Of a stretch of DNA of 64,000 nucleotides, positions 8,877 through 63,575 are shown in pieces. The position numbers were made by a program, and so were the translations under genes. This stretch comes from a bacterium (GTDB lineage: Bacteria > UBP18 > UBA7526). The stretch covers positions 1 to 64,000 of the forward strand of contig JAUXAI010000001.1 of NCBI GenBank assembly GCA_030619985.1, written 5' to 3'. The notes beneath the pieces are model-generated. The model was not told where the DNA came from and made no database searches. It saw nothing but the letters and a program-made list of their open reading frames with translations. Every line of letters starts with the position of its first letter. Position 1 is the stretch's first letter.

Positions 8877-9773
8877 ATGCGCATACTAATTACTGGTGCC
8901 TCTGGAATGCTGGGCACAGATCTGGTAGAAACCTTATCAAAAGAGCATGAGGTAGTGGGATTAGATATTAAAACTCCACCGTTCACAGTTCACCGTTCAC
9001 AGTTCACCGTTTGCGATATTACGAATGAAAAAGAGGTAATGAAAGCGGTCTGTGATGTAAAGCCAGAGGTAGTGATTCACGCTGCAGCCTATACTGATGT
9101 CGATGGCTGTGAAAAGAATGAGGATTTAGCCTACAGAGTAAATGGGACTGGTACCCGGAATGTAACCTTAGCCTGTCAAAAGTGCAAAGCAGTTATGGCC
9201 TATATCAGCACCGACTTTGTCTTTGATGGAGAAAAGAAAGAGCTCTATCTCGAAAGTGATAAGCCCAATCCTTTGAGCATCTATGGAAAAAGTAAATTAG
9301 AGGGAGAGAGATATATTTCTTCCCTTTTAGATAAATACTTCATCATTCGCACTTCTTGGCTATTCGGTAGACATGGAAGAAACTTCGTTAATACTATATT
9401 AAAACTCGCTCAGGAAAAGAAGGAACTAAGAATAGTAAATGACCAAATCGGCTCACCCACCTATACCAAAGATCTCGCCCAATCGATCAAAAAACTGATC
9501 ACCGATCACTGTTCACAGAGCACCGACTTCGGTATCTACCATATTTCCAATAGTGGTTCCTGCTCTTGGTATGAATTTGCTCAAGAGATATTAAGGGTTA
9601 AGGGTTATGGGTTAAGGGTTAAAGGTATTAGTTCCGAGGAATTGGAACGGCCGGCGAGAAGGCCAAAGTTTTCTGTCTTAGATAACAGTCGCTATATCAA
9701 AACTGTGGGTAAACCATTAAGGCCGTGGCAAAAAGCCCTGAAAGAATATATTGGAAAAATTGAGGCAACATAA
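8877..9773 (+). CDS. rmlD: dTDP-4-dehydrorhamnose reductase with repeat-encoded inserts
   Basis: A 298-residue SDR that reduces dTDP-4-keto-L-rhamnose to dTDP-L-rhamnose. The sequence shows GASGMLGTDL at the N-terminus, HAAAYTDVDGCE, STDFVFDG and the Tyr-x3-Lys in SIYGKSKLEGE, then RTSWLFGRHGRNFV. Three segments look foreign to the family and are encoded by 7-bp micro-arrays: PFTVHRSQFTV (residues about 35-45), ITDHCSQSTD (about 207-216) and LRVKGYGLRVKG (about 240-251). All keep the frame. They fall at surface-loop positions between conserved motifs, so the enzyme may still work. It follows rmlB by one base. Confidence 0.88.
   Translation: MRILITGASGMLGTDLVETLSKEHEVVGLDIKTPPFTVHRSQFTVCDITNEKEVMKAVCDVKPEVVIHAAAYTDVDGCEKNEDLAYRVNGTGTRNVTLACQKCKAVMAYISTDFVFDGEKKELYLESDKPNPLSIYGKSKLEGERYISSLLDKYFIIRTSWLFGRHGRNFVNTILKLAQEKKELRIVNDQIGSPTYTKDLAQSIKKLITDHCSQSTDFGIYHISNSGSCSWYEFAQEILRVKGYGLRVKGISSEELERPARRPKFSVLDNSRYIKTVGKPLRPWQKALKEYIGKIEAT
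8981..9008. repeat. In-frame heptad array 1 in rmlD
   Basis: Four 7-bp units alternating GTTCACA and GTTCACC, followed by a partial fifth (GTTT). They encode part of the PFTVHRSQFTV insert. Confidence 0.85.
9497..9524. repeat. In-frame heptad array 2 in rmlD
   Basis: Four degenerate 7-bp units: GATCACC, GATCACT, GTTCACA, GAGCACC. They encode ITDHCSQST, which has no counterpart in typical RmlD. Confidence 0.8.
9595..9622. repeat. In-frame heptad array 3 in rmlD
   Basis: Four 7-bp units of GGGTTAA/GGGTTAT encoding LRVKGYGLRVKG inside the C-terminal domain of RmlD. Confidence 0.85.
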
Positions 9774-9798
9774 AATTAGTCCTATTGTAGGAGGTAAG

Positions 9799-10140
9799 AT
9801 GAAAAATCTTAAATTCCTCAGTCCCAAAGAAGAAAAAGCAGTAAAGGAATTTTGCAAAAGCCTGAGGACGAAATACAAAAAGAGAGTGAAGTTTATCAGG
9901 ATATTTGGCTCAAAAGTTCACGGCAAAAGTGACAAATTCTCGGACATTGATATATTCATCTTACTGGATAAAAAGGATAAGAGAATAAGGGATTATATTT
10001 CTCGGGCTGCCTGGGAGAGAAGCCTAAAGTATGATGTCGTTCTCTCTCCCATAGTCTATGAAGAGCGCCTATTTCGCAGGCCAGTCATCCAGATTACCCC
10101 TTTTATCAAGAATGTTTTAAAAGAAGGAGCTATGATATGA
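9799..10140 (+). CDS. MNT-type minimal nucleotidyltransferase
   Basis: A 113-residue protein with the nucleotidyltransferase motif GS-x10-D-x-D (GSKVHGKSDKFSDID, residues 37-51), followed by a possible third acidic strand (KYDVVLS). MNT proteins pair with HEPN proteins as type VII-like toxin-antitoxin systems, in which the MNT enzyme adenylylates or otherwise neutralises the HEPN RNase. A TAGGAGGTAAG site places the start at ATG 9799; the frame is open further upstream, overlapping rmlD, but without support. The stop overlaps the ATG of the HEPN gene at 10137, as expected for a coupled pair. The partner is disrupted. Confidence 0.85.
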   Translation: MKNLKFLSPKEEKAVKEFCKSLRTKYKKRVKFIRIFGSKVHGKSDKFSDIDIFILLDKKDKRIRDYISRAAWERSLKYDVVLSPIVYEERLFRRPVIQITPFIKNVLKEGAMI

Positions 10141-10606
10141 AAAGGGAACTGGTGGATTTAGCAAAGCATAGATTAAAGAGAAGTAAGGAGGCTAAGAGAG
10201 ACGCCCTCCTTCTCTTTAAGAAAGGGTCTTACGCCAGTGCCATAAATAAGAACCTGCTGAAGCAGAATCTTGTTTATTCCTTATTTAGATGAGGCAAGTA
10301 GAACGCGTCGTCATAAATAGAGCATATTACGCGATATTCTATGCTACACGCGCCTTACTAGCAACAAAGGAGCTGGATTCTTCTAAGCATTCTGGAGTAA
10401 TCGCCCTTTTCAATCGTCATTTTGTTAAGAAAGGATTAGTTCCCAAAGAGTTAAGCAGAATACTCCACACTGCTTTTGAAAAGAGAATAGCCGGGGATTA
10501 CAAGGACTTTCCTGAATTTTCTAAAGAGGAGACTAAAGAAATCCTTTCCAAATGTAAGATATTTTTGAATGGAATTGAAAAGGTTTTAAAGAAATTCCTA
10601 TCTTGA
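10137..10606 (+). pseudogene. HEPN-domain gene split by a 71-bp insertion
   Basis: The reading frame begins at ATG 10137 (MKRELVDLAKHRLKRSKEA) and reaches GSYASAIN, then shifts and stops at 10288-10290. The rest of a HEPN protein (RAYYAIFYATRALLATKEL, SSKHSGVIALFNRHFVKKGL) continues in another frame to 10606. Removing exactly 71 bp, one copy of the 8-bp repeat CATAAATA (10241-10248 and 10312-10319) plus the sequence between, joins ASAIN to RAYYAIFY and restores a normal HEPN protein of about 132 residues. The gene is thus the broken partner of the MNT gene. A frame open from 10289 could still make the C-terminal two thirds, but without the first helices. Confidence 0.88.
10241..10319. mobile_element. 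Small insertion flanked by 8-bp direct repeat
   Basis: CATAAATA occurs at 10241-10248 and 10312-10319, bracketing 63 bp that interrupt the HEPN gene. The duplicated octamer looks like a target-site duplication, and excision restores the frame. The insert has only a short internal inverted repeat (CTGCT/AGCAG near 10254) and no coding capacity, so it would be a non-autonomous element. Its class is unknown. Confidence 0.6.
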
Positions 10607-10630
10607 TAGAATACTCTTGAGGACAAACTG

Positions 10631-11566
10631 GTGAAAGTACTAATAACTGGAGGAGCAGGTTTCTTGGGTTCGCATCTCGTGGACCTTCTCTTAAAAGAGG
10701 GCAACGAGGTCATCTGCCTGGATAATCTAATAACTGGAAGTATGGATAACCTTGCCCATTTACAAGACAATAAAAAGTTTAGGTTCATTAAACAGGATGT
10801 AACGGAGTATATCAAAATAGATGGGCCGATTGACTATGTCTTACATTTCGCCTCACCAGCCAGTCCCATCGATTATCAGAAATATCCCATCCAGACCCTC
10901 AAAGTTGGTGCCTTAGGAGCCCATAAGACTTTGGGTTTGGCAAAAACAAAAACAGCCAAATTCCTTCTGGCCTCGACTTCAGAGGTATACGGGGATCCAT
11001 TGGTTAATCCCCAGAGAGAAAATTACTGGGGGAATGTTAATGCTATAGGGCCGAGGGGAATGTATGATGAGGCAAAACGTTTTGCTGAAGCTATGACTAT
11101 GGCTTATCATAGGTATCACGGAATAGATACCAGAATCGCTCGCATATTCAATACCTTTGGAGAGAGGATGCGGAAGAAAGACGGTCGCGTAGTTCCCACC
11201 TTCATTACTCAGGCCCTAGCCAATGAGCCCTTAACCGTCTTTGGAGATGGTTCCCAAACAAGAAGTTTTTGTTATGTCTCGGATATGATTGAAGGACTAT
11301 ATAAGTTAATGCTATCCGTTATTCATGAGCCCATTAATTTAGGCAATCCTCAAGAGATGACCATCTTGGACTTTGCTAAAAAAATAATTGAATTGACTAA
11401 GAGTAAGAGCAAAATAGTCTATAAACCATTGCCCCAGGATGATCCCAAGGTGAGAAGGCCCGATATCTCTAAAGCCAGGAAACTCTTAAAGTGGGAACCA
11501 AAAATAAGTCTGGAAGAGGGACTAAAAAAAACCATTGCTTGGTTCAAAAAGAGCAAAGAAGCATAG
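10631..11566 (+). CDS. UDP-glucuronate decarboxylase (UDP-xylose synthase)
   Basis: A 311-residue extended [13 protein letters not shown], the [20 protein letters not shown] segment that is diagnostic for UDP-xylose synthases, the STSEVYGDP active-site strand and [10 protein letters not shown] (Tyr-x3-Lys) identify it. It oxidises and decarboxylates UDP-glucuronate to UDP-xylose, continuing from the UDP-glucose dehydrogenase at 3719. The start is GTG at 10631; no strong Shine-Dalgarno is evident. It follows the broken HEPN gene by 24 bp. Confidence 0.9.
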
Positions 11567-11615
11567 CAGAATACAAGTTGACAAGGATACAAGAATACGA
11601 AAATAACTAAACTTG

Positions 11616-11679
11616 TTAACTTGTCAACTTATTAACTTGTTAACTTATCAACTAATCAGCTAATCAACTTGTCAACTAA
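11616..11679. repeat. Intergenic octad array, eight units
   Basis: Eight consecutive 8-bp units of the form T(T/C)AACT(T/A)(G/A), for example TTAACTTG and TCAACTAA, in the spacer between the UDP-xylose synthase and the Trm112-like gene. Looser relatives (GTTGACAAGG, ATACAAGAATACGA) precede it from about 11575. Confidence 0.85.
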
Positions 11680-11699
11680 TAAGTATGGGGGTGGAAAGA

Positions 11700-11858
11700 A
11701 TGATTGACAAGGAATTGTTAGAGATTTTAGCTTGTCCAGTATGCAAAGCAAGTGTAAGATTAGAGCAGAATAAAATTGTCTGTATCAAATGTGGCAGAAG
11801 GTATCCCATTCGGGACGGTATTCCCGTGATGCTGGAAAGCGAAGCAGAAAAAGAGTGA
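11700..11858 (+). CDS. Trm112-like zinc-ribbon protein
   Basis: A 52-residue protein, MIDKELLEILACPVCKASV onward, with two CxxC pairs (CPVC near residue 12, CIKC near residue 28) and the RYPIRDGIPVML ending of the Trm112/YcaR family. Bacterial members are small and often sit beside methyltransferases, kinases of lipid A synthesis or glycosyltransferases; their role is thought to be as partner proteins. GGTGGAAAG precedes the ATG. A related domain is fused to a methyltransferase at 24444. The flippase starts five bases after its stop. Confidence 0.85.
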   Translation: MIDKELLEILACPVCKASVRLEQNKIVCIKCGRRYPIRDGIPVMLESEAEKE

Positions 11859-11862
11859 CTGA

Positions 11863-13119
11863 ATGAAGTTTGTCGGCACCTTCGAGAGACAAGTCTCTTT
11901 CATATTCATTGCTCTCACATTGGGCAATATAGGTAACTTTATATTTCACATTTTTATGGGGCGTCATCTACCAGAAACGGAATATGGAATCCTCTATAGA
12001 TTGCTTGCCCTTTTAATGATCGTCTCTGTTCCCGCAACTACTATCCAGACAGTAATTACCAAGTATACTGCCCACTTCAAAGCCTTTAGCCAATATGGTA
12101 AGATCCGTTTTTTATTATTTAATCTTCTCAAGAGGCTCTTCTTCTACGGTTTCCTGGGCTCCCTTATATTTCTGACGGCAAGCGGTAGAATCGCTTCTTG
12201 GCAGCATTTTCCCTCTAGCAGGCCAGTTATGATCCTGGGAATACTTTTGTTGTTGAGTGTTATCGCCCCAGCAGCAGGAGGAATAATCCAGGGCCTGCAA
12301 AAATTTAATTACTTAGGATGGAGCACCATATTAGGCACCGCTTCCCGTTTAATATTTGGAATTATCTTTGTCTTCCTCGGTCTGGGAGTAAGTGGGGCTT
12401 TAGCTGCTTCTATTCTCGCCATGCTTGTCGGTATATGCATCCTCTTCTTTCCCCTGAAGTTTCTGTTTAAATCAAAGGAAACAGAGGAGAGGGTAGACTT
12501 TAAAGAGATCTACAGATATTCTGCTCCGGTTATATTCAGCGTCCTCTTCTTCATGATTCTGACCAACATCGATGCTCTATTAGTGGGAAACTTCTTTAGC
12601 CCGGTTAAAGCAGAAATTTATTCTGCTGCTGCCTTTGTGGGAAGGATGATATTATTTCTTCCCATGCCCATTGTGATTGTCATGTTTCCTAAAGCCTCAG
12701 AACTATATGCCCAGAGAAGGGACTCTTCCCTTATCTTGAAAAAAAGTCTACTTTACGTTGGCCTCTTAGCGGGTGGAACAACCCTTGTTTGCCTTTTCTT
12801 TCCCTCTCTCATAATTAAGCTTATCTGGGCCGGTAAACATCAAGCAAGTACCCCATTAATTGGAAAGTTCGCCTTAGCCATGGCCCTATTTGGTCTAGTC
12901 AATATCCTTTTCTTCTATCAGCTCTCCATTCATAGGTTTAGATTTTTATATTTAGCAGGCGCTTTCACCCTTTTACAGATAATCGCTATCACTCTATTCC
13001 ACAATACCCTCTCCCAGGTAGTCTGGATCTTGGTGGCCAATGGAGCGTTACTCTTTTTAATTAATCAATTTTTAGTTTGGACACCGAAAAAGATTTCTGA
13101 AAAAGTCAGAAATCTTTGA
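11863..13119 (+). CDS. Polysaccharide/oligosaccharide flippase (Wzx-like, MOP superfamily)
   Basis: A 418-residue membrane protein with about twelve hydrophobic helices. The opening QVSFIFIALTLGNIGNFIFHIFMGRHLPETEYGILYRLLALL is typical of oligosaccharide flippases, which carry lipid-linked repeat units across the inner membrane. Its position among sugar-nucleotide enzymes and glycosyltransferases supports export of a polyprenyl-linked glycan. The last codons (KISEKVRNL) are part of a perfect 12-bp hairpin ending at the stop codon. The ATG at 11863 follows closely on the previous gene, suggesting an operon. Confidence 0.85.
   Translation: MKFVGTFERQVSFIFIALTLGNIGNFIFHIFMGRHLPETEYGILYRLLALLMIVSVPATTIQTVITKYTAHFKAFSQYGKIRFLLFNLLKRLFFYGFLGSLIFLTASGRIASWQHFPSSRPVMILGILLLLSVIAPAAGGIIQGLQKFNYLGWSTILGTASRLIFGIIFVFLGLGVSGALAASILAMLVGICILFFPLKFLFKSKETEERVDFKEIYRYSAPVIFSVLFFMILTNIDALLVGNFFSPVKAEIYSAAAFVGRMILFLPMPIVIVMFPKASELYAQRRDSSLILKKSLLYVGLLAGGTTLVCLFFPSLIIKLIWAGKHQASTPLIGKFALAMALFGLVNILFFYQLSIHRFRFLYLAGAFTLLQIIAITLFHNTLSQVVWILVANGALLFLINQFLVWTPKKISEKVRNL
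13089..13117. repeat. Perfect hairpin at the 3' end of the flippase gene
   Basis: Twelve-bp arms (AAAGATTTCTGA 13089-13100, inverse 13106-13117) with a 5-base loop lie inside the last codons of the flippase gene. The hairpin resembles a terminator stem, but no T-run follows, so termination is uncertain. Confidence 0.7.
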
Positions 13120-13139
13120 TTACAGTGATTAAAAAATAA

Positions 13140-13180
13140 GATTACACAGATTAGTTATTAACGACGAAATCTGTGTAATC
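13140..13180. repeat. Inverted repeat GATTACACAGATT
   Basis: Perfect 13-bp arms (13140-13152 and 13168-13180) with a 15-base loop. A third, partial copy of the right arm (AATCTGTGTAGTC) is at about 13189-13201. A smaller inverted repeat, CTCTGAA/TTCAGAG, lies at 13208-13227. No gene is present in this spacer. A related AATCTGCGTAATC-type segment is read in frame at about 18752-18792. Confidence 0.75.
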
Positions 13181-13259
13181 ATTCTCAAAATCTGTGTAGT
13201 CAGAGCCCTCTGAAGATTTTTTCAGAGACCTCCGAAAAGAAGATTAGAAAGGATAGAGA

Positions 13260-14961: not shown

Positions 14962-14964
14962 TGA

Positions 14965-15015
14965 ACCCCGCACCTTTAGGCAAGGGCAGAAAATGAATAC
15001 AAAAAGGTGCGGGGT
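14965..15015. repeat. Inverted repeat enclosing a start codon
   Basis: Perfect 13-bp arms ACCCCGCACCTTT (14965-14977) and its inverse (15003-15015). The 25-base loop carries AAGGG and the ATG at 14993, so the start codon lies in the hairpin loop, as it does at 7802-7903. Confidence 0.8.
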
Positions 15016-16546
15016 GAAGGTAATGATTTCTTATCCTCCCTTGAAAGGACCAGGATGTCCTTTATTGAGTCAGAACCGTCAGTTTCAATGGTTCCATAAT
15101 CCTACTTATATCTATCCCGTAGTTCCGGCCTGGGCAGCGACGATGCTTAAGAACGCGGGTTATGAGGTCATCTGGAACGACTGTATTGCAGAAAATTGGG
15201 ACTATAAAAAGTTTTTGGATTTTGTCCAAAAGGAAAAGCCCGACCTCATTGCCTTTGAAACCAAAACCCCAGTAATAAAGCAGCACTGGCAAATCATCAA
15301 CGATTTGAAAAGACCAATCACCAATCACCGATCACCGATCACCGTATTATTCGGTGATCACGTTACTGCTCTACCTGAGGAATCTTTCCACAATTCTCAG
15401 GTCGATTATGTTCTGACCGGTGGTGACTATGATTTCCTCCTCCTCAACCTCTGTAACTTTTTAGCTACCGATAACCCGATTACCCGATCACCTGATCACC
15501 TGATAACCCGATTAGAACCCGGCATCTGGTATCGAGAAAGTGGCGAAATTAAGAATTCCGGTCTTTTCCGATTAAATCATGATTTAGATTCTTTACCTTT
15601 CATTGATCGTGATTTAACTAAATGGAAACTCTATGCTTATGAAAATGGAAATTATAAATTAACCCCCGGGACCTATATTATGGCGGGAAGAGATTGTTGG
15701 TGGCGAAAGGATGGTGGCTGTACCTTTTGCTCCTGGACCGCCCTTTATCCTACCTGGAGGGTGAGGTCGGTAGAGAATGTCTTGGATGAGATGGGCGAGC
15801 TTATTGAGAGATATAAGATTCGGGAGATAATGGATGATACCGGTACTTTTCCGGCTGGGGAGTGGCTGCGAGAGTTCTGTCAGGGGATGATTAAAAGAGG
15901 TTATAATGAAAGGATTAATTTCGATTGCAATCTGCGTTTTGGAGCATTAACCAGTAAAGATTATAAACTGATGGCCAAGGCGGGATTCAGATTCCTCCTT
16001 TATGGGCTTGAATCGGCGAGCCAAGAAACAATTAATAGATTGAATAAGGAGATAAAGATTGCCGCCATTGAGGAGGAATTAAGAGAGGTCAAAAGGGCAA
16101 ATAGAGAGATTAAAGGACATCTCGAACCCCATGTCACCTGTATGGTTGGCTATCCCTGGGAGACAAAAGAGGAGGCAGAGAAGACGATTCAGATGACAAA
16201 GGATTTGTTCAGTAAAGGCTTGATAGACACCCTTCAGGCAACCATTATGATTCCCTACCCAGGAACGGCCCTCTTTAAGGAATGCAGGAAGAATGGATGG
16301 TTAAAGAACGAGGATTGGGATGGGTTTGATATGAGTCAGCCGGTCATGAAGACTCCTCTGAAGGATGAGGAAGTAATGCGACTCACTCAGGGCATTTATA
16401 AATCCTTTATTACCCCACGCTTCTTATTTAGGAAAATAATATCTATCAGGAATATTGATGGCTTAAAGTTTTTCTGGCGTGCTGGAAAGGCAGTTTTGGG
16501 CCATCTCCGGGACTTTATGAAAAAACAATCTAAATTTTTGACATAG
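14993..16546 (+). CDS. B12-binding radical SAM protein with C-x7-C-x2-C cluster motif
   Basis: A 517-residue protein. An N-terminal cobalamin-binding-like domain (about 10-180: ISYPPLKGPG, VPAWAATMLKNAGYEVIWND, KPDLIAFETKTP) precedes a radical SAM barrel (about 225-440). The cluster motif GRDCWWRKDGGCTFC has seven rather than three residues between the first two cysteines. LLYGLESASQETINRLNK and MVGYPWETKEE are standard later motifs. Members of the superfamily methylate unactivated carbon or phosphorus, or rearrange carbon skeletons; the substrate is unknown. Two stretches (NHRSPIT near residue 108 and DNPITRSPDHLITR near 160) are encoded by repeat arrays. ATG 14993 is used; GTG 15014 and ATG 15023 are alternatives. 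Confidence 0.8.
   Translation: MNTKRCGVKVMISYPPLKGPGCPLLSQNRQFQWFHNPTYIYPVVPAWAATMLKNAGYEVIWNDCIAENWDYKKFLDFVQKEKPDLIAFETKTPVIKQHWQIINDLKRPITNHRSPITVLFGDHVTALPEESFHNSQVDYVLTGGDYDFLLLNLCNFLATDNPITRSPDHLITRLEPGIWYRESGEIKNSGLFRLNHDLDSLPFIDRDLTKWKLYAYENGNYKLTPGTYIMAGRDCWWRKDGGCTFCSWTALYPTWRVRSVENVLDEMGELIERYKIREIMDDTGTFPAGEWLREFCQGMIKRGYNERINFDCNLRFGALTSKDYKLMAKAGFRFLLYGLESASQETINRLNKEIKIAAIEEELREVKRANREIKGHLEPHVTCMVGYPWETKEEAEKTIQMTKDLFSKGLIDTLQATIMIPYPGTALFKECRKNGWLKNEDWDGFDMSQPVMKTPLKDEEVMRLTQGIYKSFITPRFLFRKIISIRNIDGLKFFWRAGKAVLGHLRDFMKKQSKFLT
15314..15341. repeat. In-frame heptad array in radical SAM gene
   Basis: Four 7-bp units, CCAATCA twice then CCGATCA twice, read in frame as part of RPITNHRSPIT in the N-terminal domain. 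Confidence 0.85.
15470..15515. repeat. In-frame octad array in radical SAM gene
   Basis: Five 8-bp units (GATAACCC, GATTACCC, GATCACCT twice, GATAACCC) plus a partial sixth, read in frame as DNPITRSPDHLITR. Confidence 0.85.
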
Positions 16547-16610
16547 GGCATTCAAGATGTTATGCTAAATCTGGAAAACCGAACTTTATTTCGGAAATCC
16601 AAATCATTAA

Positions 16611-16700
16611 AAGGACGGGAAATATACTCCATACCTAGACGCAGATATAATATCATCAGAAAATGTTATATCTGAATGCGTAGAAAAATGTGGAGAGTAA
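16611..16700 (+). pseudogene. Fragment of a GT2 glycosyltransferase gene
   Basis: Reading from 16611 gives DGKYTPYLDADIISSENVIS then ECVEKCGE and a stop. This matches residues about 85-115 of the GT2 protein encoded at 18297 (GKYILYLDADMILSKDVIS then ECVEKC). The match stops at the same residue where the other copy carries a palindromic insert, and the AlbA_2 gene begins two bases later. Upstream (16547-16610) there is no clear continuation. Confidence 0.75.
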
Positions 16701-16701
16701 G

Positions 16702-18069: not shown

Positions 18070-18070
18070 T

Positions 18071-18103
18071 ATGCCAACTTTATGCCAACTTTATGCCAAC
18101 TTT
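18071..18103. repeat. Three perfect 11-bp tandem repeats
   Basis: ATGCCAACTTT is repeated three times without error, starting one base after the stop codon of the AlbA_2 gene. Its exactness contrasts with the degenerate 7/8-bp arrays. Confidence 0.9.
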
Positions 18104-18207
18104 AAAGATAGTTGTAAAGGAGGGAAGGGTAAGGGAAAATGGTAAACAGAGCATTAAACGGGTGCGAGTTCTCCGCTATCGTGGGGAAGCCGCCAGATAA
18201 TAATTAT

Positions 18208-18282: not shown

Positions 18283-18296
18283 TGAGTGATAAAGGG

Positions 18297-19265: not shown

Positions 19266-19298
19266 ATAAGAAAAATAATAAGATAGGAGAGAAAGAGT

Positions 19299-25364: not shown

Positions 25365-25367
25365 GAT

Positions 25368-46424: not shown

Positions 46425-48869
46425 ATGTATTTTATATTTAGAAAGGCGAAATTATTTTTTCTTTTTTGCAAGGTACACCCGGTAGTTGATTTAATATTTA
46501 TCCTCCTGGTTGGATTACATATTTTTAGTTGGTTCCATGGAGACTTTTTATATATCGGAGGTGACTACCTCATTCCTCTTAATCCCATTGAAAATTTGCA
46601 GCACCTCTATACCTGGAAGACCCAGCTGGGCGGTGTTGAATCCTGGGGCTTAAATCAAATCTTAGTAAATGGGTTCTTTGCTCTCTTCCATTTTCTTGGT
46701 TTTTCCCTGCCAACCATACAGCAATTCTATATCTATTTCAGTCATATTTTAGCTGGTTTATTTATGTATTATTTAGCGTCAACCTTTGCCTCTGGTGAGA
46801 AGGATAGACGAGCGGTGAGCCTGATAGCCGCCTTTTTCTATATGTTTAGTCCCTTTATGCTCGGCCTGGGCCAGATAAATGTCTACCTTCCCTATGTCTT
46901 CATGCCCCTGGTGCTGGCTTTCTATGTAAGAGGGCTGTCAGATAGAACAAATCAGATTAGATATGCTTTCTTTACTGCCTTAGCCTTATTAGGCTTTATC
47001 GGGGAGCTTCCTCAGTATAAAATGCTTAGTATAGCGATTGCTTTAATTCTCTTATATACCTTATTTCATATCCTTTTCCTTAGAGGAAGTATCCGGCATT
47101 GTGCTAAATTTTTACTGATTATTATCGTCTTGGCATTCGCCTTGACTGCCTGGTTTATCCTCCCTTATTTTCGAGTCATTACCTACACCGGCCTGATCGA
47201 GACTGCCCGGGCTGCAACATCGAGGATAGGATCAGTAAGAGGCTTTGGAGACTATGGCTTTGCCACATTGAAGGAGCTTTTCAGAATATTGGGTAGCGCT
47301 GGATTCTACTATGGGTCAACCTATTCCCGACCCTATTTCCATAATCCATTTCTAATTCTAATCAGCTATCTCATTCCTCTCTTAGCGTTTAGTTCTCTGA
47401 TATTCAAACCTAAATCCAAGAACGTTATCTTCTTCGCTACTGTTTCATTATTCTTTCTCTTTTGCGCTAAAGGCACCAATCCACCCTTTGGCTACATCTA
47501 TAAATGGATTGTAAATTATATTCCCTTTGCCAGGGTTTACAGGACTTCCTGGACTCTACTTCTGGGCGCAGTAATAGGATACGCTTTCCTCATAGGAGTT
47601 GCTACAATAAGCATCTATAATAAGTTACGTCACCGTAAACCTTACCTGGCCAGAATTTTTATCTTAGTAGTTATCGCCGTTATTCTTACCAATGCCTGGC
47701 CATTAGTAACCGGGGCTTACCTCGAAAATCTCAATAATCCCCCTGATTATAAAGGAGTGGAAATTCCTCCATCATACTATGCGGCCAATGTCTTTTTGAA
47801 TACCCAGGGCACCGAGGATTCTAAATTCCTGGTATTACCACCGAGCGCTAGTTATCTGATCACAGATTGGGGCTATCTGGGCAGTGCCCATTTGCTACCC
47901 TTTATTTTCTCAAAGCCCCTGATATACGGTTACCACACAATAACCTTGACTCAGGCCGTTACCAAGCTCGCCTATCATTCATTCATCCAAGAGGATTTTA
48001 ATCAAGCCAGTAAGATCTTAGGCCTGCTCAACGTTCGCTATTTGCTCTTGGATAATAGTATCGATACCGCCAGCAAGATTATTATTGCGGAATATCCCTT
48101 AGAAAGATATCGAGAAGGGTTGAAGTCGCAGAAAGGAATCCATTTTAAGAGAAGTTTTGGAAAGTTAGACCTCTATCGGGTTGACAATTGTTTACCCCAT
48201 ATCTTTGCCTCCTCTCACACTACATTAGTAGACGGGAGCAGCGAGGCTTTGGTTCCCCTGAGTAATACCAAGTATCTAAGGGAAAAACCATGCCTCCTCT
48301 TCTTAGAACAGCTCCCTGGCTACCAGCAGAGAAAACTTATGAATAGAACAGATGTTCTAATTACTTTCAAGAAGGAAAGTCTAAAAATAAAACCAGTTAC
48401 CTTTAAGAAAAAAACACCCCCTGAAGTCTCTTTTGAAAGGATTAATCCCACCAGGTATGTGGTGAAGTTGAGGAGGATAAAGGAGCCTTTCTGGTTGGTC
48501 TTTTTGGAGAGTTTTCATAAGGGGTGGAAGGCATACATGCTTCAAACTCCAAACTCTAAGCTCAAAACTCAAAATAGACGGGAATGGTCGGCGTTGGTGA
48601 GTGCTTGGAAGGATAGGGGGAGGAGGATTGAACTGAAAGAGCATTATGTAGTGAATGGGTATGCTAATGGATGGTGGATAGATCCGTCCAAAGTCAAAGA
48701 AATAGAGATTGTGTTGGAGTATATGCCTCAAAGACTGGTTGAAGTTGGAATTCTAATATCAGGATTGACTTTTTTGGGATGTATTGGATATTTAGCGGGG
48801 ACTGGAATCAGGAGGAAACGGAGAAAGTTAGCTGATGAAAAAGTTAGCGATCGAGCGGAGAATTTCTAA
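46425..48869 (+). CDS. GT-C/YfhO-like large membrane protein
   Basis: An 814-residue protein with about twelve hydrophobic helices in residues 18-430, a soluble domain (about 440-760) and one more helix near 770-795. VGLHIFSWFHGDFLYIGGDYLIPLNP early on, ISLIAAFFYMFSPFMLG and the C-terminal FWLVFLESFHKGWKAY, HYVVNGYANGWWIDP segments match bacterial GT-C proteins resembling YfhO or arabinofuranosyltransferases. It probably uses a polyprenyl-phosphate sugar. Residues LQTPNSKLKTQNR (about 707-719) are encoded by a heptad array. It starts one base after the upstream stop. Confidence 0.6.
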   Translation: MYFIFRKAKLFFLFCKVHPVVDLIFILLVGLHIFSWFHGDFLYIGGDYLIPLNPIENLQHLYTWKTQLGGVESWGLNQILVNGFFALFHFLGFSLPTIQQFYIYFSHILAGLFMYYLASTFASGEKDRRAVSLIAAFFYMFSPFMLGLGQINVYLPYVFMPLVLAFYVRGLSDRTNQIRYAFFTALALLGFIGELPQYKMLSIAIALILLYTLFHILFLRGSIRHCAKFLLIIIVLAFALTAWFILPYFRVITYTGLIETARAATSRIGSVRGFGDYGFATLKELFRILGSAGFYYGSTYSRPYFHNPFLILISYLIPLLAFSSLIFKPKSKNVIFFATVSLFFLFCAKGTNPPFGYIYKWIVNYIPFARVYRTSWTLLLGAVIGYAFLIGVATISIYNKLRHRKPYLARIFILVVIAVILTNAWPLVTGAYLENLNNPPDYKGVEIPPSYYAANVFLNTQGTEDSKFLVLPPSASYLITDWGYLGSAHLLPFIFSKPLIYGYHTITLTQAVTKLAYHSFIQEDFNQASKILGLLNVRYLLLDNSIDTASKIIIAEYPLERYREGLKSQKGIHFKRSFGKLDLYRVDNCLPHIFASSHTTLVDGSSEALVPLSNTKYLREKPCLLFLEQLPGYQQRKLMNRTDVLITFKKESLKIKPVTFKKKTPPEVSFERINPTRYVVKLRRIKEPFWLVFLESFHKGWKAYMLQTPNSKLKTQNRREWSALVSAWKDRGRRIELKEHYVVNGYANGWWIDPSKVKEIEIVLEYMPQRLVEVGILISGLTFLGCIGYLAGTGIRRKRRKLADEKVSDRAENF
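48545..48572. repeat. In-frame heptad array in GT-C gene
   Basis: Four 7-bp units, AAACTCC, AAACTCT, AAGCTCA, AAACTCA, with a partial fifth, encoding LQTPNSKLKTQNR between two conserved segments (KGWKAY and the HYVVNGYANGWW region). Confidence 0.8.
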
Positions 48870-51007: not shown

Positions 51008-51010
51008 GTT

Positions 51011-51271: not shown

Positions 51272-51295
51272 AATTCCCGCAGAAAAGAGGAAGAG

Positions 51296-52734: not shown

Positions 52735-52735
52735 C

Positions 52736-54787: not shown

Positions 54788-54788
54788 T

Positions 54789-56294: not shown

Positions 56295-56299
56295 TATCT

Positions 56300-58492: not shown

Positions 58493-58498
58493 GTGAAA

Positions 58499-59599
58499 AT
58501 GCCAATATTAGCTAAATTCAAACACCAGCGAACTGAAATCCTAATTTTCTCATTTTTTGGTATTCTGAGTCTAATGGCTACCCATCCTATGATCTTTAAA
58601 ATGAAGAGTCATATCTACGGATATCCTGGTGATCCCTTAGGAAGTATATGGAGAATTTGGTGGTATAAATTTTCCTGGGTACATCATATTTCTTCTCGGT
58701 TTATTATCATAATAGCCCATCCCTTTGGAGTTGATTTGAGTCAGGAAATAAGCAGTGCTCCTTTTAATTATTTAGTTTTCTTAATGGCTTTACTTAGTAA
58801 TGAAATCTTTACTTATAATTTTATTCTTCTATGTGGGTTTCTACTATCAGCAATTACTATGTACTTCTTGGTTTACCACTTGACCAGAAATAGGGGAGCA
58901 AGTACTATGGCTGGAGTGCTCTATGCCTTCTGTCCTTGGCACTTTGCTCATGCCGGGCAACATCTTTCCTTGGCTTCTATTCAATGGCTACCCCTTTACG
59001 GACTATTTCTCTTTAAACTGTTTAATAAAAGAACCTATAGAAATGCCTTTCTCTGTGCTCTGGGATTTTCCTTAGTCATTTTTACTGATTTTTCCTATGT
59101 CTTTCTAATTTCGATTTTTACTACTGCCTTCATTGTATGGGGGTTATGGTTTACCTTGGGTCCCAACCGTAGATTCTACCCTACAAGTTCTAAGGCCTCA
59201 CTTTTAAAGACAAGTATAGTAATTCTGGTAACTTTTCTCATTGCTTTGGCTATGATACTTCCTTTTACCTATTCTACTTTTAAGACCGCTCTTACGCTGC
59301 CTAAAGTAGAGTCCATGGCTATCTTAAGATACGCCAAGCCTTTTCGAGATCTTACTTCTAATTCTGCCCGGCCTTTGGGTTATCTTTTACCCTCTCAAGA
59401 TAACCCATTTTTTGGCAGGGTCACTAAAAAATTCATTAAAAGTCCCTTCTATGGTAGCCATCCTACGGAACATACCCTTTATCTGGGATGGGTGGGGATT
59501 GTGCTTTCGATTGTCGCGATAAGGGAATGGAGGAGAAAAAATAGGAAGCAGAGGATAGAGAAAAGAGGTCATCAGGTCATCAGGTCATCAGGTCATTAA
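58499..59599 (+). pseudogene. GT-C-like membrane protein, 5' part of a split gene
   Basis: A frame of 366 residues with about eight helices: LMATHPMIFKMKSHIYGYPGDPLGSIWRIWWYKFSW carries the early acidic loop, and AGVLYAFCPWHFAHAGQHLSLASIQWLPLYGLFLFKLF the second conserved region of YfhO/GT-C-like proteins. The frame ends at 59597-59599 inside an octad array after RIEKRGHQVIRSSGH. The rest of the protein continues in another frame (next entry). One extra 8-bp unit in the array would join the two frames. ATG 58499 is preferred over GTG 58493. Confidence 0.75.
59568..59599. repeat. Octad array at the frameshift point
   Basis: GTCATCAG three times plus GTCATTAA. The stop codon of the 5' part lies in the last unit. 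Eight is not a multiple of three, so each unit gained or lost changes the frame. Confidence 0.9.
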
Positions 59600-60365
59600 G
59601 AGGAATAGACAGACAGACCGATCACCGATCACCGATCACCGATCACGGAAAGGGATAAGCTTCTTTCTCTTTGCTGGGATTGTGGCTTTGCTATTTTCTC
59701 ATTCCCCCTATACAGAAATTGGTCCTTTTCGAATACTCTTCCCTTCTTACTTTATGTATAGAATTGCTCCTATGTTTCGCTGTTATGCCCGATTTGGTAT
59801 TGTTGTTATGCTTTGTGTGAGTGCCTTAGCAGGGATTGGTCTTGCTTCAATTTTAGAGAAGATAAGGAGTAGTAAAAGAAGAAGAATTTTTCTTTCTGTA
59901 ATTTTTTTACTTATTTTTATTGAATTTGCTCCTGCTCTGCCAGCCCCCATGGTTAATGCAGTTGATCCTCCTCCAGTCTATGAATGGCTCGCTAAACAAG
60001 AAGGCGATTTTACTATTGCTGAGTATCCCTTAGAAGATGATCAGGAGTACTTCTTTTGGCAGAGGATCCACCAGAAGAGATTAGTCAATGGTGCTCAACC
60101 AGGAACCTACGCTGATGAGGTAAGGAAAGAGATCATTGATATCTTGAAGCCAGAAACTCCGGGTATTCTAAAATATTTAGGAACGAGGTATATCATTTTT
60201 CATCCTGATAAGTATCTGAAGAGTGAGGATGTCCCAGTAATTGGCGAGGTTCCAGATGTAAGCAAGCAAAGGGGGCTAAAACTCATTAAGACTTTTGAAG
60301 ATGCGGGAGTCTATGAGGTGGTAGTGGAGCCGATTAAGCCCAAGACGCGAATTAACGCGAACTGA
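59600..60365 (+). pseudogene. GT-C-like membrane protein, 3' part of a split gene
   Basis: In the frame of the 3' part, translation is open from within the octad array: RNRQTDRSPITDHRSRKGIS, then a helix, SHSPYTEIGPFRILFPSYFMYRIAPMFRCYARFGIVVMLC, another helix and a soluble tail (VYEWLAKQEGDFTIAEYPLED, QRIHQKRLVNGAQPGTYADEVR, YLGTRYIIFHPDKYL), all typical of the second half of YfhO/GT-C-like proteins. A GTG at 59682 could start a shorter product of 227 residues. The last codons (KTRINAN) are encoded by the ACGCGAAT repeat. Confidence 0.75.
59618..59645. repeat. Heptad array inside the split GT-C gene
   Basis: CCGATCA four times without error, then CGG. It would be read as RSPITDHRS in the frame of the 3' part. 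Confidence 0.9.
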
Positions 60366-60580
60366 AAAGCGAGGACGCAAGATAATCGGCACGCGAATTA
60401 TCGCGAATTAAAAGCAGTTACCAAGCTATCAAGTGATTGAGCTATCGAATTGGATGGTTGGATGGTTAGCCTGTTAACCAGTTTGCTGGTTAGCCAGTTT
60501 GCCAGTTGAATTTGGGGGAGAGCAGAGAAAAGAGCTACCAAGCTATCGAGCTATCAAGTAAGGAGTAGTAAGATAATAAA
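60346..60580. repeat. Repeat-dense spacer: ACGCGAAT units and octad arrays
   Basis: From 60346 to 60411 lie ACGCGAAT-type units, including a 44-bp stretch (60355-60398) that recurs with one mismatch at 61566-61609. At 60465-60504 are five octads (GTTAGCCT, GTTAACCA, GTTTGCTG, GTTAGCCA, GTTTGCCA), preceded by GGATGGTT twice and AGCTATCR-type units (60424-60447, again about 60541-60556). No gene is present. Confidence 0.8.
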
Positions 60581-60609
60581 TTGTGGTTGAGTCAGAAATA
60601 TGGTATATT
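60581..60609 (+). promoter_or_regulatory. Possible promoter of the DUF3108 gene
   Basis: TTGTGG (60581-60586), a 17-base spacer and TATATT (60604-60609), 37 bases before the ATG at 60646. The -35 box is only fair. The repeat-filled spacer upstream makes a new transcription start here plausible. Confidence 0.45.
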
Positions 60610-60645
60610 AAGTAGTAATCACAAAGAGAAGAGGAGGAGTGATTT

Positions 60646-61479
60646 ATGAGAAGGACATTAGGTTTTGTTTTAATCTTGGGTGTTTTAGTGGTAAGTGGAT
60701 GCGTGAGAAGGGAACTTCTTGTTCTCCCTGAGGCACCAGAGGTAGGGGTGTTAAAGCCGGTTACCAGGCCAGGGACAGCGGCCTTCAGGGGAGGGGAAAA
60801 ACTAACCTTCTTAGCTAAGTTCCGGTTTATTCCTGCTGGAGAGGTGACTATGGAAGTAAGGGAGATGAGATATAGGGGCCATGAGGTCTACAGTCCTTTA
60901 ATAACTATGAAGGCGGCTAAGTTATTTTCTTTTTTCTGTCCAGCAGAGGTAAATATCAGGTCCTATCTCGATGCCCGTACCTTAGATAGTCTACGTTATG
61001 AGGAGCATACCATAATGGGTCGCCATACCTATGAACGCTTGACGGTCTATGACCAGAGGAATCGATTGGCGACGTATGATGCGCCAGTCTATGATAGAAT
61101 GGGCAAGACAATCAGGATTTATAAGAAGAAGGTAAGGATTCCACCCCATACCCAGGATATGTTATCTGCCTTCTATTATATTCGAACCCAGGAATTAAAA
61201 GAGGGAAAGATTCTAACCATCAATGCCAATGAGCGACACAAGAATTATAGAGTGAAGATAAAGGTCTTGAGGAAAGAGAAGGTTACTGTTCCAGCAGGAA
61301 CCTTCCTCACCTGGGTGATAGAGCCGATTTCCATACAGAGATTGGATAAAGAAAAAGAAGGGGAAAAAGGAACAGGTCTTATCTATCTCAGCGCAGATGA
61401 GAGGAAGCTACCAGTCTTAATGAAAGCCAAGACAAAATTAGGCTCGGTTACTGTTCAACTAATAGACGTTAAACTTTAA
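60646..61479 (+). CDS. DUF3108-type lipoprotein
   Basis: A 277-residue protein with a lipoprotein signal (LGFVLILGVLVVSGCVRRELL; Cys19 in the lipobox). FRGGEKLTFLAKFRFIPAGEVTMEVREM is the opening of DUF3108 proteins, followed by SYLDARTLDSLRYEEHTIMG and VPAGTFLTWVIEPI. The family is periplasmic or envelope-bound with unknown function. GAGGAGGAG precedes ATG 60646. The gene stands between two copies of a 44-bp direct repeat, so it may have moved as a unit or had repeats arrive on both sides. Confidence 0.82.
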   Translation: MRRTLGFVLILGVLVVSGCVRRELLVLPEAPEVGVLKPVTRPGTAAFRGGEKLTFLAKFRFIPAGEVTMEVREMRYRGHEVYSPLITMKAAKLFSFFCPAEVNIRSYLDARTLDSLRYEEHTIMGRHTYERLTVYDQRNRLATYDAPVYDRMGKTIRIYKKKVRIPPHTQDMLSAFYYIRTQELKEGKILTINANERHKNYRVKIKVLRKEKVTVPAGTFLTWVIEPISIQRLDKEKEGEKGTGLIYLSADERKLPVLMKAKTKLGSVTVQLIDVKL

Positions 61480-61617
61480 CGCGAATAATCGCGAACTGCA
61501 AAGCAAAGAACGAAACAAAGTAAACAGGACGCGAATTAACGCGAATAAAAGAGGGACGCGAATAGACGCGAACTGAAAAGCGAGGACGCAAGATAATCGG
61601 GACGCGAATCAACGCGA
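61480..61617. repeat. ACGCGAAT repeat array 5' of the GxxExxY gene
   Basis: Around nine ACGCGAA(T/C)-like units, often 10 bp apart (for example ACGCGAATTAACGCGAAT), fill this spacer. The 44-bp repeat copy is at 61566-61609. The last unit (61611-61619) overlaps the ATG at 61618. Confidence 0.88.
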
Positions 61618-62013
61618 ATGAAAACAGAAACAAAAATATTATATAAGGAGTTAGCTTACCAAATAGTAGGAGCTTTTTACGAAGTATATAATACTCTGGG
61701 GCCAGGTTTTAAAGAGTCCATTTACCATAACGCTTTAGCCATTGAATTTACTTTACGGAAAATATCCTTTGAAACTAATAAGAGACTCACCATCAAGTAT
61801 AAAAAGCAAAAGGTTGGAATTTATGAACCAGACTTCGTTATAGATAATAAGATTCTTGTTGAAATCAAAGCTGTTCCCAGGATGCCCAGAGTTTACGAAA
61901 AGCAGTTATATTACTATCTGAAGGGTACAGAATATAAATTGGGTTACTTAGTAAATTTTGGAGCTGATAAATTAGAAATCAAGCGTAGAATCTACGAAAG
62001 GATTCGCGTTTGA
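61618..62013 (+). CDS. GxxExxY protein (PD-(D/E)XK-like, function unknown)
   Basis: A 131-residue protein with the name-giving motif G30-x2-E33-x2-Y36 in GPGFKESIYHNALAIEF, and a nuclease-like pattern D72...E82-x-K84 in YEPDFVIDNKILVEIKA. The family is widespread, often multi-copy and uncharacterised. The start codon lies on the end of an AACGCGAATG unit and the stop on an inverted copy (ATTCGCGTTTGA, 62002-62013), so the gene is delimited to the base by inverted repeats of the same family that fills the flanks. No conventional Shine-Dalgarno is visible upstream. Confidence 0.9.
   Translation: MKTETKILYKELAYQIVGAFYEVYNTLGPGFKESIYHNALAIEFTLRKISFETNKRLTIKYKKQKVGIYEPDFVIDNKILVEIKAVPRMPRVYEKQLYYYLKGTEYKLGYLVNFGADKLEIKRRIYERIRV
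62002..62010. repeat. Inverted copy of the AACGCGAAT unit at the GxxExxY stop
   Basis: ATTCGCGTT is the exact inverse of the unit at 61611-61619 and is the only inverted copy visible near the gene. It encodes the last residues IRV. Confidence 0.8.
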
Positions 62014-62025
62014 AGGAGGTTTGAG

Positions 62026-62454
62026 ATGGCTTTTGTATTACTCTTTGCTTCTATATTTTTGGCAGTGGTGGGACAGTTATTGCTGAAGAAGGGGATGTGG
62101 ACGGTGGGGATTGTCTATTTCCATTTCTCCCATCTCTGGTCTACCTTCCTTAAAGTCTTTTCTAACTGGTATGTTATCTTTGGATTCGTCTTTTTTGTTT
62201 TAAGTGCCCTTCTGTGGTTGGCGGTCTTATCAAGATTGGATATTAGCAAGGCCTATCCCATGGTGGCCGCGGGCTATATTCTGGTTCTTTTAGCTTCCAG
62301 GTGGGGAATAATTGTGACTAGAGAACCAGTCTCTCCCATCAGATGGATAGGGGCCCTGGTGATTTGTTTCGGTGTTTACCTTATTTCGCGCACTGATTTC
62401 GCGCAGTTGATTAAGGACTTATCAACTTTAATCTTCTGGAGGAAGCATGGTTAA
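62026..62454 (+). CDS. Small DMT/EamA-type transporter, ArnE/ArnF-like
   Basis: A 142-residue protein with four helices: VLLFASIFLAVVGQLLLKKGM, WYVIFGFVFFVLSALLWLAVLSRLDISKAYPMVAAGYILVLLAS, and VSPIRWIGALVICFGVYLIS. These follow the half-size DMT pattern of ArnE/ArnF and related proteins, which flip polyprenyl-phosphate sugars. The location with GtrB-like and GT-C enzymes supports such a role. The C-terminal tail RTDFAQLIKDLS is encoded by two ATTTCGCGC units. AAGGAGG precedes ATG 62026. Confidence 0.8.
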   Translation: MAFVLLFASIFLAVVGQLLLKKGMWTVGIVYFHFSHLWSTFLKVFSNWYVIFGFVFFVLSALLWLAVLSRLDISKAYPMVAAGYILVLLASRWGIIVTREPVSPIRWIGALVICFGVYLISRTDFAQLIKDLSTLIFWRKHG

Positions 62455-63526
62455 GGCGGTCATTATTGCTGGGGGGAGGGGAGAGAGGTTTTGGCCTAAG
62501 AGTAGGATTAGAACACCGAAGCAACTCCTTCCCATAGCCTCTAAAAAGAGTATGATCTATGAGACGGTGAAGAGGATAAGCCCTTTGGTGACATCAAAGG
62601 ATATTCTGATTATTGCCAGAAGAGGTTTGGGGGCAAGAATCAAGAAAGATCTTCCTAAGATCCCCACTAAGAATATTATCTCCGAGCCCTTTGGGCGGGA
62701 TACTGCAGCAGCAGTCGGCTTAGGAGCAATATTAGCGGAGAAGAAAGACCCAGATAGCGTTATGGTTGTCTTACCCGCAGATCATGTAATTGGTGAGCCG
62801 AAGAAGTTTCTAAAAACTTTAAGAGTGGCCATCAAGGCTGCCCGAGATACAGATAATTTAGTGACTATGGGAATCAAACCTAACAGGCCAGAGACGGGGT
62901 ATGGGTATATAGAAATTGGTTCGCCAGTTCGCCAGTTCGCCAGTTCGCCAGTTTATGAGGTGAAGAGGTTTGCAGAAAAGCCGGATAGGAAAAAAGCATT
63001 AAAGTTTATGAAGAGCGGGAGGTATCTCTGGAATAGTGGAATGTTTATCTGGAGAACCTCTGTTATCCTGAAAGCGATGAGAAAACATATGCCCCAACTA
63101 TATAGAGGCCTTTTGGAGATTCAGGAGGCCTTGGGTACTTCTCAAGAAAAGAAAGCGATTGAAAAGGTCTACAAAAAGTTGGACAAAATATCCATAGATT
63201 ATGGTATAATGGAGAAGGCAAAAAATACATTGGTGGTGAAGGCAGATTATCTCTGGGATGATGTGGGGAACTGGCAGGCCCTGGAAAGAATCTCAGTTAA
63301 AGATAAAGAGAGGAATATTACCAAGGGAGAAGTCTCTTCTTTAGATACGAGAGATTCCATTATTCTCTGTGACAAAGGAATGGTAGGAACAATCGGTATA
63401 AAAGATTTAATCATCATCTCAACAGAAGATGCTACTTTAATCTGCCCTAAAGATAGGGCCCAGGAAGTAAAGGAACTGGTCCACAAGCTTGGTAAGAATA
63501 AGAAATTAAAGAAATACATTAAGTAA
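62447..63526 (+). CDS. manC: Mannose-1-phosphate guanylyltransferase
   Basis: A 359-residue enzyme making GDP-mannose. AVIIAGGRGERFWPKSRIRTPKQLL is the GTP-binding signature; SEPFGRDTAAAVGLGA, VVLPADHVI, RYLWNSGMFIWRTS, IDYGIMEKAKN and LWDDVGNWQAL complete the set. No isomerase domain is fused (that form is about 480 residues). Eight residues at about 160-167 within EIGSPVRQFASSPVYEV come from three extra octads and are in frame; without them the sequence reads as usual. GGAGGAAGC precedes ATG 62447, overlapping the transporter gene by eight bases. Confidence 0.93.
   Translation: MVKAVIIAGGRGERFWPKSRIRTPKQLLPIASKKSMIYETVKRISPLVTSKDILIIARRGLGARIKKDLPKIPTKNIISEPFGRDTAAAVGLGAILAEKKDPDSVMVVLPADHVIGEPKKFLKTLRVAIKAARDTDNLVTMGIKPNRPETGYGYIEIGSPVRQFASSPVYEVKRFAEKPDRKKALKFMKSGRYLWNSGMFIWRTSVILKAMRKHMPQLYRGLLEIQEALGTSQEKKAIEKVYKKLDKISIDYGIMEKAKNTLVVKADYLWDDVGNWQALERISVKDKERNITKGEVSSLDTRDSIILCDKGMVGTIGIKDLIIISTEDATLICPKDRAQEVKELVHKLGKNKKLKKYIK
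62919..62950. repeat. In-frame octad array in manC
   Basis: GTTCGCCA four times without error, followed by GTT. Three units equal 24 bp, hence eight added residues with no frameshift. Confidence 0.92.
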
Positions 63527-63575
63527 GGTTCACGGTTAACGGTTTACGGTTAACCGTAAAAAAACGGTAAACGGT
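63527..63575. repeat. Heptad array with inverted tail after manC
   Basis: Four 7-bp units (GGTTCAC, GGTTAAC, GGTTTAC, GGTTAAC; 63527-63554), then about 20 bases containing GGTAAAC twice, which pair with them. It begins right after the manC stop. The hairpin might end transcription, but there is no T-run. Confidence 0.8.

Follow-up and report, generated by a model that had tools for sequence, protein, structure and literature searches.

The window, that is, the whole stretch of 64,000 nucleotides that was analysed, carries short tandem arrays of 7- or 8-nucleotide words between and inside genes; all features described are on the plus (+) strand. Agreement between units was expressed as a self-match, the matches over four units, scored out of 21 (period 7) or 24 (period 8). 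Twelve arrays had been listed from the letters alone (the sequence-only reading) and all 12 were present, those at 9497 and 60465 being weak. One array was absent from that list, a period-7 AATGCAA array of 4.7 units in intergenic DNA (7134..7166); the related genome G002 has a period-8 array, AAAGTAGG, at this site.

The gene for RfbD (dTDP-4-dehydrorhamnose reductase; 8877..9773; PF04321, E 1.1e-101) hosts three in-frame arrays. Loop 1 of the protein is encoded by a CACCGTT array of 5 units (8977..9011; self-match 18/21 from 8981), in place of which a GATCTGG array is found in G002 and a GGTTTAC array in G003; the most distant RfbDs are about 14 amino acids shorter here. Loop 2 contains a weak GATCACC array of 4.3 units (9497..9526; 15/21), with CATCACA, also in 4.3 units, in G002. 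The third array, TTAAGGG in 5.1 units (9591..9626; 19/21 from 9595), falls in segment 3, the length of which is unchanged relative to distant orthologues.

An intergenic period-8 array of 8.5 units, AACTTATC/AACTTGTC (11610..11677; 19/24 from 11616), is partly common to G002, and the same octamer family was found in an unrelated genome, G218. Downstream, a gene for a radical SAM/B12-binding protein (14993..16546) hosts two in-frame arrays: period-7 ACCGATC in 4.6 units (15313..15344; 20/21 from 15314), where G002 has a shorter AAACTCA array, and period-8 CCGATAAC in 5.6 units (15468..15512; 21/24 from 15470), where G002 has period-7 ACCGTTC in 4.6 units. The ManC (mannose-1-phosphate guanylyltransferase) gene (62447..63526; PF00483, 1.8e-43; PF22640, 4.9e-21) contains a pure period-8 array, GTTCGCCA, in frame in a loop (62919..62953; 4.4 units; 24/24). 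Loops of equal length are encoded in the relatives by GGTTCGCC (period 8) in G004 and by GGTTTAC and GGTTCAC (period 7) in G002 and G003, respectively. A period-7 GGTTNAC array of 4 units (63527..63554; 18/21) begins directly after the ManC stop codon. The arrays of RfbD, the radical SAM/B12-binding protein and ManC agree with the earlier description of in-frame arrays inside enzymes.

Further arrays also lie within genes. A degenerate period-7 AAACTCA array of 4.6 units (48543..48574; 17/21 from 48545) is near the 3' end of a GT-C gene (46425-48869). A membrane protein gene (58493..60365) is split into two ORFs (58493-59599 and 59682-60365), the frame shifting in a region with two arrays of 100% match: period-8 AGGTCATC in 3.9 units (59566..59596; 22/24 from 59568) and period-7 ACCGATC in 4.3 units (59617..59646; 21/21 from 59618), the latter a word that recurs at other loci of the same genome. 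The orthologue in G002 is a single ORF of 655 amino acids, in which an in-frame octamer array of 72 bp occupies the corresponding position. A degenerate period-8 array, GTTAGCCA, of 5.4 units (60465..60507; 15/24) is intergenic.

Abundance, period and length

Arrays of the window were called at a stringent period score of at least 13, and 30 dinucleotide shuffles of the 64-kb window served as the null. The window held six period-7 and four period-8 arrays at this score, 10 strong arrays against a mean of 0.00 in the shuffles. Periods 4, 11 and 12 gave one array each, and periods 2, 3, 5, 6, 9, 10, 13 and 15 gave none. Genome-wide counts were made on 531 kb of the source genome (G000), sampled as stretches, and the genome-wide class proposed in the sequence-only reading was found there: 122 arrays, or 230/Mb. 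The source lineage carries about one patch per 4,000 to 5,000 bases, with 4-5 copies of a 7- or 8-letter word. Direct calls gave 39 arrays of period 7 and 37 of period 8 in these 531 kb, and 34 and 16, respectively, in G002. All five family relatives carry arrays (72-307/Mb); most unrelated genomes have almost none.

By placement, 53 arrays were coding, 72 intergenic and 30 ambiguous; in-frame arrays occur in core enzymes that include RfbD, ManC, TrmD, ProC, IleS, ValS and IspG. Perfect arrays made up 30% of those in genes and 6% of those between genes, which would be expected of genic arrays that arise recently and are soon lost.

Array size in the 531 kb peaked at about 4.5 units (29-39 bp), a range that held 37 of 47 period-7 and 33 of 49 period-8 arrays of the sample; for period 7 the real length mode was at 29-34, and shuffles of the 531-kb sample gave almost no arrays of length at least 26. 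Four whole units were present in 37/53 coding and 34/72 intergenic arrays. A preferred length, as first noticed, is real, but the range given for it (28-32 bp) was too narrow, the arrays at 11610-11677 and 15468-15512 measuring 68 and 45 bp. Orthologues differed by whole units in four site comparisons (-21, -28, -21 and -8 nt). Variable positions within the unit clustered weakly for period 7 of G000 (17 vs 10.2 expected) and did not cluster for period 8 or in G002, and fixed variable positions (the GGTNNAC idea) were not adopted.

Orthologous sites

Sites of G000 were mapped in G002, as the sequence-only reading had suggested for related strains. Of 28 sites, 19 were occupied, and at 15 the word was a different one, sometimes with a different period too. 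The differing pairs were about as similar as random pairs, and a gradual drift of words by concerted evolution was rejected on this ground. Distant orthologues lacked the arrays. Chance, or conserved protein segments of an ordinary kind whose sequence is periodic by accident, would be compatible with those arrays that leave protein length unchanged; this explanation is refuted by the orthologue comparison and by the shuffles, many arrays being intergenic besides, and was given virtually no probability.

Selection of the arrays as functional sites (regulator binding, RNA elements or phase variation) was also considered. Heptamer arrays near start codons of Beggiatoaceae have been proposed as regulatory (PMC4679880); a step of one 8-nt unit changes the reading frame, and one frame in the window is broken. 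However, relatives carry differing words at a given site, many arrays fall within the genes of enzymes that are unrelated to one another, and no class of site has a word of its own; we regard such a role as very improbable.

At ProC, a recombinant patch of about 180 bp spans the array, and array exchange in this gene is plainly homologous recombination; this was the sole recombinant patch demonstrated. In ProC, ManC and RfbD segment 3, the stretch with the array is equal in length to its counterpart in array-free outgroups, and the net length change at coding sites ranged from about -2 to +14 amino acids. Genic arrays as insertions of three units (21 or 24 nt) fitted TrmD and ValS, but elsewhere the change was 0, +2, +5, +6, +9, +12 or -2 amino acids, and this idea was dropped.

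Shared vocabulary

Unit sequences do differ between sites, as had been stated, but the same words recur far above expectation, and the description of the units as unrelated is not borne out: they draw on a common vocabulary. Against a composition null, exact words recurred at other loci in 57% vs 13% (period 7) and 55% vs 2% (period 8). Recurrence between species was 49% vs 7% and 27% vs 1%, and words common to coding and intergenic arrays amounted to 42% vs 7% and 33% vs 1%. G000 uses dozens of words, mostly without G-runs. Recurrent period-7 words were not unusually common as singletons (mean percentile 0.54), and background word frequency was rejected as the source of the vocabulary, the mean percentile outside arrays being only 0.55 (period 7) and 0.66 (period 8). 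The degenerate octamer ACTTRTYA was found at 19 sites in G218, which is unrelated to the source, and 284 other genomes lacked it; G077, from the same family as G218, is array-free.

These data bear on local slippage alone, by which a seed present by chance would grow into an array on the spot, and each lineage would have its tolerant loops hit independently. The whole-unit steps and the confinement of arrays to tolerant sites agree with it, and the short allele of one gene keeps a seed with fewer units (G002 L127:475 vs G000 L037). In contrast, the vocabulary far exceeds the composition null with words that are not common as singletons (0.54), and for the DegT array (L154:13658) neither G002 nor G003 shows a seed at the empty site. 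We consider this explanation unlikely. The earlier objection that slippage is insufficient holds for random local seeds, given the shared vocabulary and the wholesale change of words; copy number itself moves in whole units, as slippage predicts.

Candidate enzymes and repair genes

In a dedicated process, a template or protein would place units of 7 or 8 nt, some 30 bp in all, at selected sites, as a telomerase-like enzyme or a tiny mobile element might do. Such a process would account for the preferred length, the wholesale replacement of words at one site, the vocabulary and the distribution of ACTTRTYA. However, a profile search with RVT_1, which matched in 3 genomes as a control, gave no match in G000, G001, G002 (93% complete) or G003, and a telomerase-like or other reverse transcriptase was rejected. 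Inspection of the site alignments by eye showed neither a target-site duplication nor a flanking motif, the net length change varies, and whole-unit steps and recombination explain part of the variation. The ProC exchange is recombination besides. We judge the templated or protein-guided process, which the sequence-only reading had thought conceivable, to be quite unlikely. We hold it distinctly unlikely that an unrecognised dedicated process draws on a limited vocabulary to write patches of 4-5 units of 7 or 8 nt over the existing sequence of tolerant sites, with process or vocabulary common to unrelated lineages such as that of G218.

Ku was found in none of the six family genomes, and end joining by Ku was set aside. 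MutS_V is absent from all six, as it is from the array-free genome G032, and is present in array-rich genomes outside the family, namely G218 and those of L089 and L095; loss of MutS is therefore neither necessary nor sufficient, and mismatch-repair loss was rejected as the cause.

Origin of the arrays

On balance, the arrays probably belong, at very high density, to the known class of heptanucleotide repeats (LSSR/STRR) and arise by slippage in steps of 7-8 nt, words being spread ectopically and arrays swapped by recombination. Replication misalignment with this preferred step would make and resize runs of 4-5 units. Runs would last only in places that constrain neither length nor sequence, namely intergenic DNA and variable surface loops, and within genes only in-frame, stop-free words would survive. 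Existing arrays may seed new ones, short words being copied to other tolerant sites by ectopic template switching or filler synthesis, which would give a genome-wide vocabulary. Lineages would exchange whole arrays through homologous recombination that extends over the flanking gene; seeding and exchange would therefore produce a fast turnover of words at sites that remain occupied.

Slippage with spread and exchange is favoured by the spectrum specific to periods 7 and 8, the whole-unit steps, the vocabulary, the orthologous sites occupied by differing words, the greater purity of genic arrays, the ProC patch and a window gene, intact in G002, whose frame is broken where its arrays lie. Against it, pure slippage alters length, yet ProC, ManC and RfbD segment 3 match array-free outgroups; the length mode at 4.5 units differs from the falling distribution of simple slippage; the words paired at a site seem drawn at random, with no sign of stepwise change; and no donor-recipient copying event was caught.

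The six related genomes offer a natural experiment, with dozens of arrays at orthologous sites, between known neighbours, that differ in word and period. What is constant (site, period near 7-8, about 4.5 units) can be separated from what varies (the word), and this restricts models of repeat origin. Loops of core enzymes, aminoacyl-tRNA synthetases included, hold stretches, among them peptides such as ITDHRSPITDH, that look like the product of a mutational process, and loop arrays bear on annotation and on the evolution of protein loops.

Comparison with known repeats

To our knowledge, heptanucleotide repeats are over-represented in many bacteria by a mechanism that has never been put to the test. 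As summarised in PMC4679880 and PMC4692102, Mrazek (2007) found them to be the most abundant long repeats in most genomes and proposed polymerase slippage. The LSSR of that summary (units of 5-11 nt) are dominated by heptanucleotides and sporadic in phylogenetic distribution, with slippage tied to the polymerase footprint proposed, and are alike in these respects. The present arrays have the features of LSSR, with runs longer than composition predicts, dominant periods of 7 and 8 and copy number changing by whole units. They differ from LSSR as so summarised in that octamers are about as common as heptamers, dozens of words occur per genome and about a third of the arrays are in frame in core enzymes.

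The (GGGANTN)n arrays of Xanthomonas and Nostoc (PMC4692102) are similar in being degenerate, mostly of four units (in Xanthomonas) and at the same intergenic places in relatives with strong variation in length and sequence. Variation in them is limited to certain positions of the unit. They consist of one G-rich, G-quadruplex-capable word family that is about 90% intergenic, unlike the many, mostly G-run-free and often genic words here. TAACTGA repeats of Beggiatoaceae, cyanobacteria and Bacteroidetes (PMC4679880) are likewise scattered heptamer arrays common to unrelated lineages without evident mechanism, but they comprise one word only, placed for the most part immediately before start codons; the words found in the samples of G000 and G002 did not include it. 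Cyanobacterial STRR heptamers (Calothrix), as cited in PMC4692102, also include several tandem heptanucleotides per genome; that description, with three words and no in-frame enzyme arrays compared, sets them apart. Small variable segments or dimorphic loci (PMC2884548), for which illegitimate recombination and slippage were proposed, are short segments swapped for unrelated ones at one locus, as here, but are non-periodic. REPIN/SDR-type mobile elements are fixed or palindromic and have a partner transposase such as RAYT, whereas the present arrays share words and have no fixed ends. Bacterial repeats of this kind are known but have not been explained; the arrays of the source lineage are an extreme case of them and an unusually informative one.

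Occurrence and density of the arrays

All twelve arrays (patches of about four to five tandem words of 7 or 8 bp) listed by the sequence-only reading were present in the window, those at 9497 and 60465 being weak, and a thirteenth, absent from that list, was found at 7134-7166. A stringent period score picked out six arrays of period 7 and four of period 8 in the window, where 30 dinucleotide shuffles averaged 0.00. Leaving multiples of 7 and 8 aside, the other hits of the scan were one array each at periods 4, 11 and 12, plus a single multiple of the 11-mer. A perfect 11-bp tandem repeat (TATGCCAACTT, 3.2 copies) lies directly past a stop codon at 18070-18104, outside the 7/8 class.

The genome containing the window (G000) was sampled over 531 kb of its 1.25 Mb, window included, and gave 122 arrays, a density of 230 per Mb; periods 7 and 8 and their multiples made up 99 of these. 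Densities in its family relatives G001 to G005 were 219, 211, 72, 307 and 292 per Mb, the six family genomes all being fragmented assemblies, partly sampled. In 1.17 Mb of sequence drawn from 74 named genomes, mostly unrelated ones, the density was 49 arrays per Mb and very uneven: arrays of period 7 or 8 were missing from most, and several, mostly of period 7, were present in each of a few, namely a Kiruna bin, the cyanobacterium Dendronalium and some Patescibacteria and Planctomycetes. The same array style and octamer family were seen in G218 (L248-L267), an unrelated, MutS-bearing genome of another family, at 129 arrays per Mb in stretches picked without regard to arrays; its family member G077 had no array of the 7/8 type in 66 kb.

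Array length and host genes

Lengths peaked at 29-36 bp for period 7 and 33-39 bp for period 8, about 4.5 units for both. Coding arrays, a class set by ORF length and not by full annotation, had exactly four whole units in 37 of 53 cases; intergenic arrays did so in 34 of 72 and were more broadly spread in size.

In-frame arrays were located in variable loops of RfbD, ManC, a radical SAM protein, TrmD, ProC, IleS, ValS, IspG, NadC, Fmt, threonine synthase, RluD, an asparagine synthetase homologue, a DegT-type aminotransferase, LolD, TsaB and others (named from Pfam or solved homologues, the rest by sequence recognition). Compared with array-free homologues, length was unchanged in ProC, ManC and RfbD segment 3, and was greater by 7 aa in TrmD, about 8 aa in ValS and about 14 aa in RfbD loop 1. 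Differences from solved structures were +2 (IleS), +5 (Fmt), +6 (IspG and LolD), +12 (threonine synthase), -2 (RluD) and +9 and +5 aa (asparagine synthetase homologue).

Turnover at orthologous sites

Array sites of G000 were mapped to G002 with both flanks required. Of 28 sites, 19 were occupied, four by the same word and 15 by a different one; in the opposite direction 16 of 27 were occupied. With a density of 211 arrays per Mb, about 2-4% of unrelated intervals of 100-200 bp would be expected to hold an array. Different-word pairs were no more similar than random pairs. The comparison covers a few dozen loci with identities of 78-94%, a divergence at which single events are no longer visible.

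The ManC loop was the clearest case: the window has 35 bp of octamer GTTCGCCA (62919-62953), G004 has octamer GGTTCGCC, and G002 and G003 have heptamers GGTTTAC and GGTTCAC, all at equal loop length. At RfbD loop 1 (8977-9011) three genomes had three different heptamers.

Whole-unit steps of 21, 28, 21 and 8 nt were found in four site comparisons. In ProC, about 180 bp around the array were 94-95% identical between G001 and G002 and 75-76% between G001 and G000, and the flanking windows showed the opposite pattern, G001 being closer to G000. The G001 gene (L138:11199-12014 with L216-L219) is thus a mosaic, G002-like for about 180 bp and otherwise G000-like, and recombination between species of the genus is therefore active. 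A pure GAGTTCG array in a DegT gene (L154:13658) was new in an empty site, with neither array nor seed present in G002 and G003.

The membrane protein gene at 58493-60365 is split into two ORFs, the frame changing in the region of arrays 59566 and 59617; the G002 orthologue is unbroken, one ORF of 655 aa whose octamer array at that place is in frame. Since a single octamer-unit change would switch the frame, the split in the window may reflect phase variation, gene decay or an error of assembly.

A dispersed intergenic repeat of ACGCGAAT and GAACTGAAAAGCGAGGACGCAAGATAATCG was noted at 60340-60410 and 61479-61624; the 531 kb sample of G000 has 44 copies of ACGCGAAT, a shuffle 13. At two loci (63527-63640 and L147:6700-6830) a GGTTNAC array precedes a longer sequence that is similar in both, AGCGGGTAAACTG.AAAC.ATCCGAG..AAGCGAGGA, and some arrays therefore travel in a larger dispersed element.

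Shared vocabulary and proposed mechanism

The unit words had been taken as unrelated; this was contradicted, since exact words recur between loci well above a null of letters shuffled within words (words compared in rotation- and strand-free form). The exact word was found at another G000 locus for 57% of the arrays at period 7 and 55% at period 8 (null 13% and 2%), and was common to G000 and G002 for 49% and 27% (null 7% and 1%). Coding arrays had a word in common with intergenic ones in 42% (period 7) and 33% (period 8) of cases (null 7% and 1%), and these words were not notably frequent as singletons outside arrays. Of 290 genomes, five contained three copies of ACCGATC, and each of the five belongs to G000's family. 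Three copies of ACTTRTYA were seen in five genomes of the family and in G218 (19 sites); the 284 other genomes had none, and the reversed ACTTRTYA pattern had no match in any genome searched.

Slippage with a preferred step of 7-8 nt would produce the period spectrum and unit steps, site tolerance would set where arrays sit, and recombination accounts for part of the array exchange. Copying of words between loci, perhaps by ectopic template switching or filler synthesis, would also be needed because of the shared vocabulary and the seedless new arrays; no copying event was caught. No reverse transcriptase was found in G000-G003, and no Ku in the six family genomes. MutS (PF00488) was absent from all six, suggesting loss of mismatch repair (control genomes were positive in 11 of 14 cases). 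This loss was rejected as an explanation of the arrays, as array-rich G218 has MutS and the array-free genome G032 lacks it.

Relation to known repeats

In many bacteria no long simple repeats are more abundant than heptanucleotide arrays, for which a slippage model based on the polymerase footprint has been proposed (Mrazek, 2007, as cited in PMC4679880 and PMC4692102). Xanthomonas (GGGANTN)n arrays have a mode of four units and vary at the same genes between close relatives (PMC4692102), and arrays of the word TAACTGA are known from Beggiatoaceae, cyanobacteria and Bacteroidetes (PMC4679880). The present arrays belong with these, but stand apart in having many words and octamers of equal weight, in lying in frame within core enzymes in many cases, and in exchanging their words at fixed sites, as documented above.
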